A stretch of DNA of 60,566 nucleotides. It comes from an uncultured Verrucomicrobiota bacterium. GTDB lineage: Bacteria; Verrucomicrobiota; Verrucomicrobiia; Opitutales; Opitutaceae. Where the stretch lies: NCBI GenBank assembly GCA_903904685.1, contig CAIVDS010000043.1, positions 1 through 60,566 of the forward strand. Reading direction: 5' to 3'. Shown piece after piece: positions 7,542 through 60,566 of the stretch. Below the pieces are notes generated by a model. It searched no databases. It was not told the DNA's origin and saw only the letters and a program-made list of their open reading frames with translations. Within the stretch, counting starts at the first letter, position 1, and every line of letters begins with the position of its first letter. The translations under genes were made by a program, and so were the position numbers.

Positions 7542-8456
7542 TTGAACGCCGACTCACCTTCATCCTCCGCCGCCACGCGCGGCGTGCTGACCGCGCTCGG
7601 ATGCTACGTCATGTGGGGGCTGCTGCCGGTGTATTGGAAGCAGCTTCACGCGGTGCAGGCGGCGGAGTTGATCGCGCACCGGATGGTCTGGTCGCTGGTC
7701 TTCCTCGCGGCGGCGATGGCGTGGCGCGGTTCGCTGGGCGAGGTGCGGGGCGCCCTCGGCTCGTGGCGCGGCGTCGCGCTCAACGGCGTGAGCGGCGCCA
7801 TGCTCACGGTCAACTGGCTGGTGTATGTGTGGGCCGTCAACACGGGGCGCGTCATCGACAGCAGCCTCGGCTATTTTCTCGTGCCGCTGCTCAACGTCGC
7901 GCTGGGGCGGTTCGTGCTCGGCGAGCGCGTGCGCCGGTTGCAAGGCGTGGCCATCGCGCTGGCCGCGCTGGGCGTCGCGGCGCAGGTGGTGGCGCTCGGC
8001 AGGCTCCCGTGGATCGCGCTGGCGCTCGCCGGCTCGTTCGGGATCTACGGCCTGTTGCGCAAGCAATCCCCGCTCGGAGCCTTCGCCGGGCTGACGGTGG
8101 AGACTCTCCTCGTGCTGCCGTTCGCAGCGGGCTACCTGCTGTGGCGGCAACACACGGGCGAAGGCGCGCTCGGCACGGTGGACACGCCCACGACGCTGCT
8201 GGTGCTGAGCACCGGCGTGGTGACGGCGGTGCCGCTCCTGATGTTCGCCTACGGGGCGCGGCAACTGAGGTTGACCACGCTCGGGCTGCTCCAATACGTG
8301 TCGCCCACGTTGCAGTTCCTCGTCGGCTGGGCCGTTTATCACGAGTCGTTCACCCGTGCGCGGGCGATCTCCTTCGCGTTCATCTGGGCGGGGCTGGCGG
8401 TTTACACGGCGGACACGTTTTTGACGCAGCGGCGGGCCGCGCTTGCGGCAACCTAG
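7542..8456 (+). CDS. rarD: RarD-type EamA family transporter
   Basis: A ten-helix drug/metabolite transporter superfamily protein of the inner membrane, 304 aa. RGVLTALGCYVMWGLLPVYWKQL and the 'AAELIAHRMVWSL' block are characteristic of RarD-like EamA proteins, as is the C-terminal LGLLQYVSPTLQFLVGW. The only start giving the full first helix is TTG at 7542; no convincing Shine-Dalgarno sequence precedes it, so the start is uncertain by a few codons. RarD was named from a chloramphenicol phenotype in other bacteria; its real substrate is unknown. Divergent from the YdcF-like gene. Confidence 0.8.
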   Translation: MNADSPSSSAATRGVLTALGCYVMWGLLPVYWKQLHAVQAAELIAHRMVWSLVFLAAAMAWRGSLGEVRGALGSWRGVALNGVSGAMLTVNWLVYVWAVNTGRVIDSSLGYFLVPLLNVALGRFVLGERVRRLQGVAIALAALGVAAQVVALGRLPWIALALAGSFGIYGLLRKQSPLGAFAGLTVETLLVLPFAAGYLLWRQHTGEGALGTVDTPTTLLVLSTGVVTAVPLLMFAYGARQLRLTTLGLLQYVSPTLQFLVGWAVYHESFTRARAISFAFIWAGLAVYTADTFLTQRRAALAAT

Positions 8457-8498: not shown

Positions 8499-8948
8499 AT
8501 GCCTACGATCTACGAAACGCTCCGCGCCGACATCATCACCGCCGTGAAGGCCCGCGATTCCGTCCGCGCCACCATGCTGCGCACCAACGACGGCGCGATC
8601 CAGCGCGCGGCGATGGACCAGAACAAGCCCATCGACGACGAGCTGGTCGTCGCGACGCTGCGCAAGGCCGTGAAGAACCTCTCCGCCGCCAACATCGAGT
8701 TCGAGAAAGGCCTGCGCGCCGATCTGGTTGCGGCCAATCTTGCCGAGATCGCCGTGCTTGAAAAATATCTTCCCAAGGGACTCGACGCGGCGAAGCTCGA
8801 AGCCCTCGTGGTCGCGGCGATCAAGGCGACAGGCGCGCAATCGAAGAAAGAGATGGGCAAGGTCATCGGTGCGCTCAAGGCGTTGCCCGAAGCCCCGCTC
8901 ATCGACTTCGGCGCGGCGAGCAAGCTCATCCAATCGAAGCTGCCCTGA
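8499..8948 (+). CDS. yqeY: GatB/YqeY domain protein
   Basis: 149 aa, soluble and helical. It resembles YqeY, the free-standing version of the C-terminal tRNA-binding tail of GatB. Recognisable blocks: 'LRADIITAVKARDSVRATMLR', 'VATLRKAVKNLSAANIEFEKGLR', 'EIAVLEKYLPKGLD' and 'KEMGKVIGALKA'. Full family length, starting at ATG 8499, 42 bp after rarD on the same strand. Its role is probably connected with tRNA or aminoacylation, but no activity is established. The gene is followed directly by the 21-bp repeat region. Confidence 0.9.
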   Translation: MPTIYETLRADIITAVKARDSVRATMLRTNDGAIQRAAMDQNKPIDDELVVATLRKAVKNLSAANIEFEKGLRADLVAANLAEIAVLEKYLPKGLDAAKLEALVVAAIKATGAQSKKEMGKVIGALKALPEAPLIDFGAASKLIQSKLP

Positions 8949-8953
8949 GCGGC

Positions 8954-9016
8954 GCGGTCGAGGCGGGGCGCGATGCGGTCGAGTGGGGGAGAGGCGCGGC
9001 GAACATCGCGCACGCG
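8954..9016. repeat. Three outlying GC-rich units in the same 21-bp phase
   Basis: Immediately after the yqeY stop, GCGGT occurs at 8954 and 8975 and GCGGC at 8996, spaced exactly 21 bases. These three units are GC-rich and lack the A-tract of the main array. The phase is lost before the main array at 9069 (the distance from 8996 is not a multiple of 21). They may be older, eroded units of the same family. Confidence 0.45.
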
Positions 9017-9068: not shown

Positions 9069-9530
9069 GAGGTGAGGAAAAATCCAAGCGCGGCGGTCGA
9101 AAAACCGAGTGCGGTGATAATAAAACTTAGTGCGGTGATAATAAAGTCTAGTGCGGTGATAATAAAGTCTAGTGCGGTAATAAGAAAAGTTAGTGCGGTA
9201 GGAGTAAAACCGCGTGCGGTAATAGAAAAAGCAATTGCGGTAGTCGTAAAAGCGAGTGCGGTGATGATAAATGTTAGTGCGGTGATAAGAAAACCTAGTG
9301 TGGTAGGAATAAAACCGATTGCGGTAACAAGAAAAGTTATCGCGGTAGGAGTAAAAACTATCGCGGTAGCAATAAAAGTTAGCGCGGTAGTCGTAAAAGA
9401 GATTGTGGTGATAATAAAAGTTATCGGAGTAGTCGTAAAAAAGATTGCGGTGATAGGAAAAATTAGCGCGGTAGGAGTAAAAACTAGCGCGGTAGGAAGA
9501 AAACCGATTGCGGTGAGCACAAAACCAAGC
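9069..9530. repeat. 21-bp tandem array, 22 units, no indels
   Basis: Twenty-two consecutive units of exactly 21 bases (first at 9069-9089, last at 9510-9530) with no insertion or deletion. Of the 20 units from 9111 on, 17 begin with GCGGT; the others begin GTGGT (two) or GGAGT. Base 12 is A in every unit, and bases 12-15 are AAAA in nearly all; base 19 is almost always A. Bases 6-11 and 16-18 vary freely. Two adjacent units are identical (9132-9152 and 9153-9173); most others differ at many positions. Because 21 is divisible by three, both strands stay open by construction, giving peptides with a 7-residue period such as AVIIKSS. The invariant codon third bases argue that the conserved object is DNA rather than protein. 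The array is AT-rich against a GC-rich background and lies between convergent genes. Confidence 0.95.
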
Positions 9531-9712: not shown

Positions 9713-10009
9713 TCAAGCCCCGTTTTGCAGGTCCGCCTCTCGGGCGGCTTTGCGCTTGAGATGCGCCCGGATGTCGGGGTCGTCGGCGCTGATGGAGGTG
9801 CCGCCGGTTTTGCCGGTCGCCGTTTCCTCCGGGTCGTCGGAGCCGGAATACCGGAAGACGTAGCACAGGATCAACGTCACCACCACCACCGGAAAGGCGA
9901 TGACTGCCAGAGCCAAGAGGACGGGGCCGGCGAAGAAGATCATCCCGGTAACGACGATAAGCCCCAGGTTCAGTATCGTCCGCAGGTCTTCGGTCTGATC
10001 GGTTTTCAT
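9713..10009 (-). CDS. Small two-helix membrane protein
   Basis: 98 aa: a charged start (MKTDQTEDLRTILNLG), about 45 hydrophobic residues forming one or two helices (LIVVTGMIFFAGPVLLALAVIAFPVVVVTLILCYVF), then a hydrophilic tail ending RKAAREADLQNGA. No family recognised. It follows the restriction-modification gene by 12 bases in the same direction and is probably cotranscribed, which makes a role as an accessory of that system possible but unproven. Confidence 0.55.
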   Translation of the reverse strand: MKTDQTEDLRTILNLGLIVVTGMIFFAGPVLLALAVIAFPVVVVTLILCYVFRYSGSDDPEETATGKTGGTSISADDPDIRAHLKRKAAREADLQNGA

Positions 10010-10021
10010 GGGGCGGGCGGG

Positions 10022-13000
10022 CTACCGCACGAAGGTGCCTTGGGTGTCGCCGGGGTGGGCGCGGGCCAACGCCACCAACGTTTCCAGGATTTCGAGGACT
10101 TCGCTTTCCTTGGCCCGCGTGAACCGCTTCGCGAGTTCGGCGGACGTGATCGGGCGGTCGGCGGAGGCCAGCGCGGCTTCTACCGCCTTGGCACGGGCGG
10201 CGAGGGTTTTGGGCCAGGGCAGTTTCGCTGCCTTCGGTGGACGGTGGCCGGTGGCCGGTTTGACAGGCGCGTCGGTGAGGCCGAGATCGGTCTGCTTGGT
10301 GCCGGCGAAGAGGGGCTTCTGGTAATCGGGGCGGAGCCAGCGGATGCGGCCCTCGGCCTCCTCGGCGGCGCGGGTGGCGTTGAGGGCGACCACGCGGTTA
10401 AGGATTTCGGCGTCGGCGATCGGCCAAGGCCAGCCGTAGGCGTCGGCCACGGCGGCGTCGAGGTCGTCGTGGAGTTGTTTCAACGTGGAGACGAGCGCGG
10501 CGTCGTGGATGATCTTGTCCTTGGTCGTGAGCAGTTCGCCGGCGCGGAGTTTTTCGAGGACGTTGTAGATGTCGGTGAGGCCGAGGCCGTGCTTGGCCTG
10601 AGCGCGCTTGCGGTGGGCGTCGAGTTCCTCGGCCAAGACGCGGATGCGGGTCTTTTGTTTCTCGGTGCAGTCGGGGAAAGGGAAGGGATCGAAGCAGCGT
10701 GACTTGTTGTAGCGGGGGCGATCTTCGAGCGTGCCACCGGCGGCAAGGGCGTAGGTCGTATGGATGCGGCTGCTCAGCACGCCGAGGTGGAAGGCGTCGT
10801 CCGTCGCGATGGCAATGAGCATGTTGTCGGGCAGGACTGAGCCATCCAGAAACTGGAAATGCCGATGCTTGCCGGTTTCTCCGGTGGCAATGTAGCGGGA
10901 GAGTCCTGCGAGTGCGGGACGCAAGTCGCGACGCGGTTCGCCAAACACCCACCAATTATCTCGGTAGGTTGCACGGTTATTGGAGTCGCGCTCGGGTTTT
11001 ACGGTCTGCACGACGTGTTCGTAAACTTTAGGGAAGCGATATTTGACCTCTTCTGACGTAAGACCAAAGAGGTCCATGACCATTACGCCACGAGGCGAAT
11101 CCGCGAGATCACGACCATTGAGGTAAGGACGGATGTGCTTTTCCAGCCCCTTGATTTTGCCGAGGCCGAGAGCCTTGGCCTCATCGGGCGTAACGATGAA
11201 GCCAGAGCCGTGAAGTTTAACGCCGGGTGATGAAAGGCCGGCGTTGGAAGTGAGTTCACCGGTGCCCGAAACATCCGCGCCGCCGGTGAGATCTGCGCCG
11301 ACCTTGCCAAGTTCGAGAAGGAGCTGGACTTCGTTTTCGCCGGTTTCCTCGTTGGCGGTTTCGGTGGTGACGCGTTGGAGCTTGGCTTCGGGCGCGGGAT
11401 TCATGGACGCTCCCACGGTCATGGCGATGCGGACGGCGGCGCATTCGGTGGCGTCGATCCACGGGTGATCGGGAATGGCGAAGGTGAGGTAAATACCGTC
11501 GTCCATCGCGGCCTGCACGACGCGACGGTTGAAAGTCTGGCGAATGGAGTTGGTGGTGATGAAGCCGAAGCGGCGGGTGCGACCGGCGAGCGTTTCGAGG
11601 GCGGCCTTGTGCCACCAGAACATGACGAAGTCGGCGCTCTCGGGCATGGCGGGATAGGCGGCGCGGAGCGTCTCGGTGTAGCCGTCGCCCAAGTCTTCGC
11701 GCATGCGGGAAGCGCCGAGGAAGGGAGGGTTGCCCACGATGAAGTCGGCCTGCGGCCACGCGGCGGGGCGAGGGTTGACGAAGGTGTCGAGCGGGCGCAC
11801 GGCCTTGTCGTCGGGCACGTCGCGGCCGGTGACGGGGTCGGTCTTGAAGGTGGTGCGGTTCCAGACGAACTTGGTTTTGCCGTCGGGGCCTTTGGCGAAG
11901 TCCTTTTTGTCGCAGGCAAGGACGGCGTCGCGGCACTCGATGTTCTTGAAGGCGCGGAGGACGGGCTCGGGCCACTCGGTGGCGCCGCGATTGCGGTGGT
12001 GCCACTGGAGGAAGCCGATCCAGAGGACGAGCTCGGCGATGGTGGCGGCGCGGGGGTTGATCTCAAGGCCGAGGAACTGGCGCGGGTCCACGGTCTCGCC
12101 GCCGAGGTCGAGGCGCATGTTCTCGCCGAAGCCCTCGATGAGCTGGAGCACCTCGCCTTCGAGGCGCTTGAGGTGTTCGAGGGTGACGTAAAGGAAGTTG
12201 CCGGAACCGCAGGCGGGATCGAGCACGCGCACGGCGCAGAGTTTATGGAGGAAGGCGCGGGTTTCCTTGATGGCGCCCTTGAGGTCGCCGCGAGTGGCGA
12301 GGGTGACGGCGGCGGTCTTCGTGGCGGTCCACTCCTCGCGGAGAGGCTCGATCACGGTGGGGAGGACGAGGCGCTCGACGTAGGCGCGAGGAGTGTAGTG
12401 CGCGCCGAGCTTGTGGCGTTCGGCGGGGTCGAGGGCGCGCTCCAGCAGGGTGCCGAAGATGGCGGGCTCGACGTGCCGCCATTGGAGGCGGGCGGCGCGG
12501 ATGAGGAGGCCGAGCTGGGTGCCGTTGAGCGGGAGGGCCTTGGCCTCGGCGAAGAGGCCGCCGTTGAAGTGAAGGATCTTTTGACGGAGGATGACGGAGA
12601 ACTTGCCGACGTTCATCTCGGCGAAGAGTTGCTCAAGGAGAGGGACGGCGGCGCCGGGGTCGGCCTTCACGGATTCGAGGAGCTCGGAGAAACTGTCCTT
12701 GGGGAGCAGCTCGACATCCTCGGCGAACATGCAGAAGAGGCAGCGGGAGAGAAAGGCGGCGACGGCGGCGGGGTCGTGCTTTTTCTCGAAGGACTTGGCG
12801 AGCTCGGCGAGATGGCCGGCGACCTCGCGGGTGACGGCGGCGGCGACCTTGGCGGGATCGAGGGAGCGCGGATCAAGCCAGAGCGCGCGGAGCTTGGCGC
12901 GGACATCCTCGCGGGCGAGATCGGCGAGGCGGATGCGGTGGGCGCGGGCGTCGGGGAACGGGAGGTAGGCCTTGCCCTTCTGGGTGAAGTCGGCGAAGAG

Positions 13001-13486
13001 CTCGATGACGTGGCCGACATCGACGACGAGAAGGAACGGAGGCGGGTTTTCGTCGTCGGGCAGGGAGCGGGCGTAGCGGTCGGCCTGGCCCTGGGCCTCG
13101 ATCATGGCGCGGTCCCAAGCCTCGGAGCCGCGGACCACGCCGCTGCGCGGCTTGATTTCAAATTTGAGATTCGCGATCTCAGATGCGGCGGCGTCGGGAG
13201 CGCGGGCGTATTGCTTGCACTCGCAGACGAAGCAGTCGCGCTTGTAGAGATCGATGCGGCCGGTGGTGGTCTTGACGGAGCCGCGATGATGGAAGGTGAC
13301 GGCGCGCTCGAAGACATAGGCGTTGTCGGCGGTGTCGGGGCCGGCGGGATCGGGACGAGGCACGCCGAGCAAGTCGCAAAGCTCGGAAAGGAAGAGGACG
13401 TAGTTGGCGCGTTCGGCGGCCTCGGCGCGGGACCAGCGGGCGATGAAGGCGGCGACGGCGGCGGGGCTGGTGGTCTCGGGAGACAT
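10022..13486 (-). CDS. MmeI-like (type IIL) restriction-modification fusion protein
   Basis: 1154 aa that appear to carry nuclease, methyltransferase and specificity functions in one chain. N-terminal nuclease motif: D79, nine residues, E89-C-K91 ([14 protein letters not shown]), the D-X9-E-X-K spacing described for MmeI. A helical linker follows. Amino-methyltransferase motif I is [10 protein letters not shown] at about residue 423 and motif IV is NPPF at about 586, an N6-adenine type arrangement. The region after 700 should hold target recognition, and the last about 120 residues look like an added helical or winged-helix tail. No separate methylase, specificity or nuclease gene is adjacent, as expected for a stand-alone type IIL enzyme. 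Start chosen at ATG 13484-13486 ([14 protein letters not shown]). The recognition site cannot be deduced from sequence alone. Confidence 0.85.
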
Positions 13487-13583
13487 GCGACGGGGAGTTT
13501 GTGGAGCGCGCAAGGCGCGGGCGCAACGCCGGTTTCGGGAAAAGAACGGAAACCGGAGCGGGGTTCCTCCCGCATCAACCATC

Positions 13584-59844: not shown

Positions 59845-60566
59845 TTACTTCATGGGGTGGTCGGGGCGGAGTTTGAACTCGACGCGGATGCCGGCGTTGA
59901 GGGGATTGGTCGAGGGCCAGATCGCCTCCACGGCGTATTGGATATCCCGGCGCTTTTCGGAGACCTGCTTCACCTTGGCCACGCATTGCGCGTGGGTGGT
60001 GGTGGAGACGGCTTGGGCGCCGGACTGGGACGCCTGCGAATCGACGTAGGCTTTGCGGGCGGCCTGCATCTCGGTCACATCCGTGGGTTTCATGCCTTTG
60101 AGGGTGTCAACCCCGAGGCGATCGATGATGGCCTGCGAACTGGTTTCGAGGAGGGTGCGGGTGGTGGAGAACTTGAGGCCGATGTAATAGTTGTCGCGGC
60201 GGGGGTCGTCGGCCTTGGGGTAGGTGCGTTTGGCGCGGGTTTGGGTGGCGGAGATGAGTTTAAGGAGGGCGGCTTTGGCCTCTTCCTCGCCGATGGTGTC
60301 AACCTTCTTCTCGGTGCTTTTGCCGCCCGTGCTGCCGAGGAGTTTGGTGGCCTCTTCGGCGAGGGTCGCGAGTTCGGCGACGAGGGAGGCCTCGATGCCT
60401 TCGGCGGCGAGGGCGGCGGCGTATTCGATCTTGGCGGCGGCGGTGGCGACCGCGCCACCGAGGGTGACTTCGGCGGAGAGGGCCTGGTTGATGACGGAGC
60501 GAAGGCGTTTGGCCTTCTCCGAGTTGGGATCGTCGGGCGGGGGGGTGGGTGAGTTTAAGTCAGCCA
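59845..60566 (-). CDS. Hypothetical helical protein, start codon cut by one base at the window edge
   Basis: The frame runs from the window end: bases TG GCT GAC TTA AAC at 60566 downward, so the start is almost certainly [A/G]TG with its first base just outside. The product would be 240 aa (?ADLNSPTPPPDDPNSEKAKR ...). It is mostly helical and Ala/Glu/Lys-rich, with 'ISATQTRAKRTYPKADDPRRDNYYIGLKFSTTRTLLETSSQAIIDRL' in the middle and 'QYAVEAIWPSTNPLNAGIRVEFKLRPDHPMK' at the end. No family recognised and no signal peptide. Only the last 82 residues start with an internal ATG; the whole frame is the better gene model. Confidence 0.7.
   Translation of the reverse strand, partial: ADLNSPTPPPDDPNSEKAKRLRSVINQALSAEVTLGGAVATAAAKIEYAAALAAEGIEASLVAELATLAEEATKLLGSTGGKSTEKKVDTIGEEEAKAALLKLISATQTRAKRTYPKADDPRRDNYYIGLKFSTTRTLLETSSQAIIDRLGVDTLKGMKPTDVTEMQAARKAYVDSQASQSGAQAVSTTTHAQCVAKVKQVSEKRRDIQYAVEAIWPSTNPLNAGIRVEFKLRPDHPMK

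Follow-up and report, generated by a model that had tools for sequence, protein, structure and literature searches.

A solo 21-bp tandem-repeat array in a verrucomicrobial genome belongs to a multi-locus class linked to three unnamed protein families

In plasmid modules of the iteron-Rep and centromere type, the gene of a binding protein is preceded by the direct repeats that this protein binds, which are spaced by about two helical turns. Each replicon carries a conserved site, and the Rep or ParR protein is recognisable. In REP/RAYT systems, dispersed short repeats are linked to a single-gene family and orphan repeats occur elsewhere. RAYTs are Y1 transposases. The full module that we describe here is a 21-bp direct-repeat array followed, 0-943 bp on (median 262 bp), by a gene from one of three unnamed protein families of ~190-260 aa: FAM1, FAM2 or FAM3. 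Unlike iteron-Rep modules, it has no Pfam Rep domain, its repeat consensus differs from locus to locus, and tblastn with one protein per family, a search that distant copies could escape, matched none of 72,556 plasmid records. Dispersed repeats, a linked gene family and orphan copies are shared with REP/RAYT but no transposase was matched in Pfam or NCBIfam. CRISPR differs too; units in the array studied here are few variants at the same columns, rather than a constant repeat with unique spacers.

The closest described system that we found is BrickBuilt, a MITE of Porphyromonas gingivalis (Bacteroidota) with a 23-nt repeat and IS-like terminal inverted repeats (PMC4596501). In the excerpts of that paper drawn on here, BrickBuilt resembles our modules in being intergenic and multi-copy, with spacerless direct short repeats, frequent stops, and leader and tail segments. 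However, those excerpts mention no linked gene family, whereas the arrays here are linked to a protein gene. The unit lengths also differ (23 nt against 21 bp, with a consensus here that changes at every locus). ToxIN, a type III toxin-antitoxin system, has a conserved pseudoknot as its repeat core, a terminator hairpin between array and gene, and an endoribonuclease toxin, according to the cited part of PMC8860590. As in our modules, the small protein gene of type III loci is preceded by a tandem array. Unlike ToxIN as described there, the modules show no terminator excess and keep one unit length across families. Sequence profiles in Pfam (for the FAM1-3 members scanned) and NCBIfam gave no match to a ToxN-like endoribonuclease. 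TIGR-Tas has 36-nt tigRNA units with edge and loop repeats and a Nop-domain protein, and its main carriers are phages, viruses of archaea and parasitic bacteria (PMC12045711, in the portion cited). The same portion describes two conserved boxes with two variable stretches, a single protein gene and locus-specific repeats, all as in our modules. The 36-nt unit contrasts with 21 bp here, and no Nop match was found in Pfam. In literature on 21-bp tandem repeats in bacteria, Verrucomicrobia and Bacteroidetes we met no description of the linkage reported below; subscription journals lay mostly outside that scope and may hold one.

The starting point was a single array in an Opitutaceae genome of 3.2 Mb. 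The window is the whole stretch of DNA analysed, 60,566 nt long, and corresponds to contig C43. Its relevant features are as follows.

8499-8948, plus strand: yqeY, left neighbour of the array, outside the module (Pfam PF09424, E 7.7e-31)
8947-8999, plus strand: degenerate remnant with 21-bp spacing, GCGGT or GCGGC at 8954, 8975 and 8996 (TRF score 64)
9069-9530, plus strand: solo 21-bp array of 22 units, majority consensus GCGGTAATAATAAAACCTAGT
9713-10009, minus strand: 98-aa ORF from the ORF list, convergent right neighbour, outside the module
59845-60564, minus strand: unnamed FAM1 gene of ~239 aa, the tenth copy, its first codon at the end of window and contig

A sequence-only reading had described the array as 22 units of exactly 21 bases without indels, and this was borne out. 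Register 0 gave the best consensus match for 22/22 units, and TRF reported 0 % indels in its period-21 rows. Identity at lag 21 was 0.694 over the entire array, compared with 0.292 at lag 20 and 0.293 at lag 22. The best 84-nt window reached 0.83 at lag 21, while the maximum in 200 dinucleotide shuffles was 0.52. GCGGT is exact in 17 of the 22 units, AAAA occupies bases 12-15 in 18, and columns 1, 4, 12, 13 and 14 are invariant. The remnant directly 3' of yqeY (TRF period 21, 2.5 copies) differs in phase from the main array. Rfam had no match between positions 8400 and 10100, and the 98-aa ORF had no Pfam match above the cut-off. Next to this ORF lies an MmeI-like restriction-modification gene (10022-13582, minus strand; PF20473, PF20464, PF20465, PF20466).

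The position of the array after yqeY, which the sequence-only reading had proposed to compare among relatives, is not conserved. We found yqeY in 8/9 genomes searched, the window's own included. In none of the seven relatives did a 21-bp array follow it (best lag-21 window 0.38-0.51; at locus L173 just 418 bases were available downstream). In three genomes of the same genus, the ORF 3' of yqeY looks photolyase-like by eye. The GCGGT pattern, which that reading had proposed to follow through related genomes, was found in one of 150 genomes drawn from the family when at most one mismatch was allowed. That genome is the window's own, where the pattern matches seven contigs.

Two of these contigs, C49 and C108, both start within an array and have 88 identical bases in common. 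Hence, they are probably two sides of one array. Such arrays may therefore explain breaks in the assembly. Counted in this way, the GCGGT family has six arrays (C24, C43, C49/C108, C56, C91 and C114), all with a 21-bp step. The window array is noncoding; its open frame is interrupted by in-frame TAA in the arrays of C24, C49, C108 and C114. The arrays of C24 and C56 lie in a common block of ~640 bp that includes flanking DNA (~82 % identity). On C24, the array is followed by a gene for a 238-aa protein, the first FAM1 member. C49 retains the tail of the gene beside its array, and C91 just the last bases of the gene with the sequence that follows. No FAM1 gene is found near the array on C43 or C56. 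Together, these copies look like a decay series, from whole gene (C24) through tail (C49, C91) to none (C43, C56).

Some additional repeats accompany the sister arrays. A second dispersed repeat of 113 bp (92 % identity; L026:5364-5473 and L028:1734-1846) lies near the arrays of C24 and C56. An array of GCGGT type stands directly 3' of what we take, by eye, to be a uvrA-like gene, both in Mangrovibacterium marinum (L081:2171-2362) and in the window's genome (L028:4238-4531). A decayed remnant of the 3' end of this presumed uvrA-like gene is also present in the C24 copy.

The 238-aa protein matched 12 places in the window's genome, of which ten are complete or nearly complete genes and two are fragments. 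The copies on C14 and C43 are truncated by contig ends, and the gene at 59845-60564 offers no view of an array upstream because its first codon sits at the contig end. All nine FAM1 genes with upstream sequence have a 21-bp array there, each with its own consensus. In the upstream scan, lag 22 gave no calls and lag 20 a single overlapping one; no arrays were called downstream of the genes. Among three FAM1 fragments, one has an array (C49), and those on C4 and, more distant, in genome G021 do not. FAM1 occurs in three of the 387 genomes of a phylum sample, the window's genome included. A genome of the same genus (G041) has a single copy with arrays upstream. At L152 and L147 (contigs C113 and C26), 21-bp-spaced repeats extend from the upstream region into the start of FAM1, giving N-termini rich in Pro, Ala, Ser and Thr.

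Searching for AAA every 21 bases, together with a scan of public contigs, revealed 21-bp arrays beside other small genes. These define FAM2 and FAM3. FAM2 was present in 7 of 16 chosen genomes, with 17 matches in one. From 30 loci in this first set, 28 were tested (the other two are 35-aa fragments); eight have less than 90 nt upstream. An array at lag 21 preceded 19 of the remaining 20, and none followed. A second search of 119 further genomes found FAM2 in six, including that of the query. Here, 18 loci were tested, reduced to 16 by setting aside one gene that was already counted and one locus with 167 nt upstream. A 21- or 42-bp array was upstream of 13 and downstream of none. All three misses are the three copies of one genome, G472. 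FAM3 was found in 7/44 genomes, again with that of the query, and an array accompanies nine of 13 testable copies. A last search of 16 genomes was positive in five, one of which, a relative of the window's genome, has 21 matches. Among 27 further FAM3 copies, 19 of them in that relative, an array was upstream of 18 and downstream of one.

In total, an upstream 21- or 42-bp array was found for 10/10 FAM1, 32/36 FAM2 and 27/40 FAM3 genes, or 69/86 testable complete or nearly complete genes (FAM1 fragments excluded). This figure is partly biased, since many genomes were entered via arrays, and five tested genes stand at arrays first found by the AAA search or the contig scan. Hence, the cleaner figure is that for genomes entered by protein similarity, where an array was upstream of 22/27 genes. 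By the criterion used, 17 of the 86 genes lack an array, 13 of them among the 40 of FAM3. Downstream of FAM2 and FAM3 genes, one of 86 stretches scanned held an array. Members occur in Bacteroidota (L068, L080) and in Verrucomicrobia subdivision 3 (L063, genome G161). Their distribution is patchy among species, and in some genomes copy number runs from several to many, reaching ~20 in one.

As a control, we took the remaining ORFs of 200 aa or longer at 26 loci, 133 in all. Twenty have an upstream window of at least 0.57 with lag 21 the best of lags 15-30. Five of these are module genes missed by the filter, and for 13 the 1,000 bases concerned contain the array of a module or a known solo array. 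The remaining two adjoin further arrays (L142:267-542 and L153:2796-2934) that are not upstream of a module gene; the ORF after the former looks ParA/Soj-like by eye. Across 27 module loci, period 21 accounted for 65 TRF rows and period 42 for 19, and no other period exceeded three. These loci, like those of the control, had been selected for holding modules. We conclude that linkage between 21-bp arrays and genes of FAM1-3 is well supported. The array in the window belongs to a gene-linked, multi-locus class, which goes beyond what its own sequence could reveal. The expectation from its convergent neighbours that an operator is unlikely applies to this solo copy but not to the gene-bearing copies, which are upstream of a gene.

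Unit length is constrained in this class and sequence is not, as had been supposed from the window array. The 68 arrays, of ~4 to 28 units, have 68 different consensus sequences, and scans over lags 15-30 or 12-44 choose 21 or 42. The exception, L217, is upstream of a FAM3 gene; its best lags, 41 and 20, are one base off. Inner units are in register with their own consensus in 700/730 cases, a count partly built in because lag-21 identity was used to delimit the arrays. Beside two FAM2 proteins that are 98 % identical, array similarity was 0.45, against a background of 0.34 between arrays of different families. For ten pairs with protein identity above 0.6, mean array similarity was 0.386, compared with 0.340 for the reversed strand. 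An initial view of unrelated arrays beside near-identical genes was dropped, as the arrays keep a faint similarity. Module and array therefore have a common descent, with sequence change in the array far outpacing that in the gene and unit length staying at 21 bp.

Units of FAM2 arrays are dyad-symmetric. In 32 arrays, 6.25 of 10 base pairs matched, compared with 5.27 expected (z 5.3), and the sign was the same in 5/5 genome groups (25 of the 32 arrays). The two strands of FAM2 arrays have similar folding excess (z -1.9 and -2.2), as expected of a dyad in DNA. Compensatory changes in the dyads numbered 86, against 65 in shuffles (z 3.4). This signal is weak, as slid axes slightly exceed shuffles too. 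Dyad symmetry was absent from FAM1 and FAM3 units (z 0.7 and -2.7) and from a further FAM3 set (z 0.8).

No DNA-binding domain was recognised in FAM1, FAM2 or FAM3 by Pfam or NCBIfam. FAM1 members scanned had no Pfam, NCBIfam or PHROG match beyond weak sub-threshold hits, and one of ten gave a weak match to PADLOC PDC-S02. Among PDB sequences, the FAM1 profile matched nothing but HslU, twice and weakly (E 0.015 and 0.042), and the FAM2 profile had no match. The predicted FAM1 model (pLDDT 76) is all helical; among the folds listed, comparison gave no informative relative. Internal duplication was looked for in FAM1 and not found. For FAM2, the model (pLDDT 88.8) has a helical N-terminus and a predicted fibronectin-III-like C-terminus (Z 12.6, rmsd 2.1, 93 residues). 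Profile comparison weakly aligned FAM1 155-236 with FAM2 31-109 at a probability of 47 (55 for part-alignments) and FAM3 110-162 with FAM2 11-60 at 45. For FAM3 and FAM1 it was just 2. All three profile matches hold the pattern "GI, then a leucine-rich helix". Hence, a single superfamily is possible from sequence comparison. A phage collection had no matches for one FAM2 and one FAM3 protein, though distant copies could escape, and 38 FAM1 pattern matches in viral contigs gave none that was confirmed. The FAM2 profile found nothing in 194 genomes of the phylum sample, a result that says nothing on absence as there was no known positive.

The best interpretation of our data is that the tract in the window is a solo, or orphan, copy of a dispersed gene-array module, and that the array is a putative helically phased binding platform. 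We give this reading a probability of roughly one in three. Three families from two phyla have the same 21 bp whatever the array sequence, and helical pitch is the easiest explanation. This would point to double-stranded DNA and a stacked protein assembly. Briefly, 21 bp equal two helical turns, and successive units would present the same face. On that face, the module's own protein could bind cooperatively and stack into a regular assembly carried by the units. The two-fold symmetry of FAM2 units is what a putative dimer would be expected to produce. Because contacts would be multivalent, spacing could be held constant while the bases themselves change freely. The role of the assembly would be regulation or maintenance of its own module. 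The array at 9069-9530 would descend from a module whose gene was lost, and C91 and C49 look like intermediate stages. More tentatively, Bacteroidota and Verrucomicrobia may have in these modules a new gene-array system that conserves spacing rather than sequence, and whose protein putatively reads, and perhaps builds, 21-bp arrays of any sequence.

Alternatively, the arrays could be functionless by-products: minisatellites made by slippage or recombination in a mobile, MITE-like element, with 21 bp set by a mechanical ruler. Fast drift, higher-order 42-bp units and solo copies are all consistent with this, as are the patchy distribution, exemplified by FAM1, and the ~640-bp block common to two copies. 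As regards terminal inverted repeats and lack of coding capacity, traits of a BrickBuilt-type MITE, common flanks were seen between copies, and some copies, such as that on C24, carry a gene. However, arrays are upstream and not downstream of the gene, FAM2 units are dyad-symmetric, and module loci have almost no other period. Furthermore, a sequence-independent ruler of exactly 21 bp would be new in itself. We consider this reading doubtful.

An RNA-level function is unlikely. Here, transcription would run through the array before the gene, and the transcript would be cut into 21-nt RNAs that the protein binds, in the manner of a type III toxin-antitoxin or guide array. The position upstream of a small gene, the locus-specific repeats and the range of ~4 to 28 units would suit such a system. 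When at most the first 14 units were folded, five of six related GCGGT arrays exceeded column-permuted controls as sense RNA (z -1.8 to -4.1; the sixth, -1.0), and antisense folding showed no excess over the same controls. The window array reached z -7.2 against dinucleotide shuffles, which destroy repetition too. Conversely, no clear folding excess was seen in FAM3 arrays or in the other nine of FAM1, and that of FAM2 is equal on both strands. A consensus scan of 47 gaps between array and gene found three terminators against 4.8 expected. Pair covariation among 76 distinct GCGGT units was not concentrated in one register, and RNA units would have no need of a constant 21 nt across families. 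A putative RNA hairpin with an AAAA loop in the window array would fit the sense folding excess of the five related arrays but not the lack of a covariation register.

Curved or nucleoid-organising DNA with phased A-tracts, the suggestion of the sequence-only reading, is improbable. AAA is invariant at bases 12-14 in every unit of the window array. As a general rule, however, curvature by phased A-tracts is unsupported; A-tracts are missing from other arrays of the class, A/T content of 51 arrays is not enriched at a 10.5-bp period (z -0.4 to -0.8), and position is not conserved among relatives. In the same 51 arrays, purines gave z 4.1 at this period, falling to 0.9-2.1 under two other nulls, and A/T gave z ~4 at 5.25 bp; we rely on neither signal. 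Purine-rich arrays at first seemed a FAM3 trait (mean 0.66 in nine arrays). This was abandoned when 17 further arrays averaged 0.54, with 10/17 above 0.5. Finally, a decayed coding sequence for heptapeptide repeats (21 bp being seven codons) was rejected as highly improbable: one forward frame is open across the window array, open sense frames in 51 arrays exceed column-permuted controls (51 vs 35.6) and repeats enter the gene start in two FAM1 genes, but sister arrays have in-frame stops, there is no 3-bp excess (A/T z -3.2), the open-frame excess is on both strands (97 vs 78.7 over six frames) with TA depletion (0.63), and all three sense frames are interrupted in 14/51 trimmed arrays and all six frames in nine.

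A fixed unit length, free sequence and unnamed families would together mean a new system, protein-DNA or protein-RNA, or else a new kind of selfish element. Three nameless protein families thereby gain a testable function, and scanning upstream of their genes at lag 21 would test the linkage in any genome. Other repeats were seen on the 3' side of module genes. Strong tandem repeats of 12 bp and 14/28 bp follow two FAM3 genes (L161, L169). A large imperfect palindrome lies within 260 bp 3' of two FAM2 genes (L137:4002-4130 and L138:4250-4395). Parts of it recur elsewhere in L138, and it is perhaps the right end of an element.
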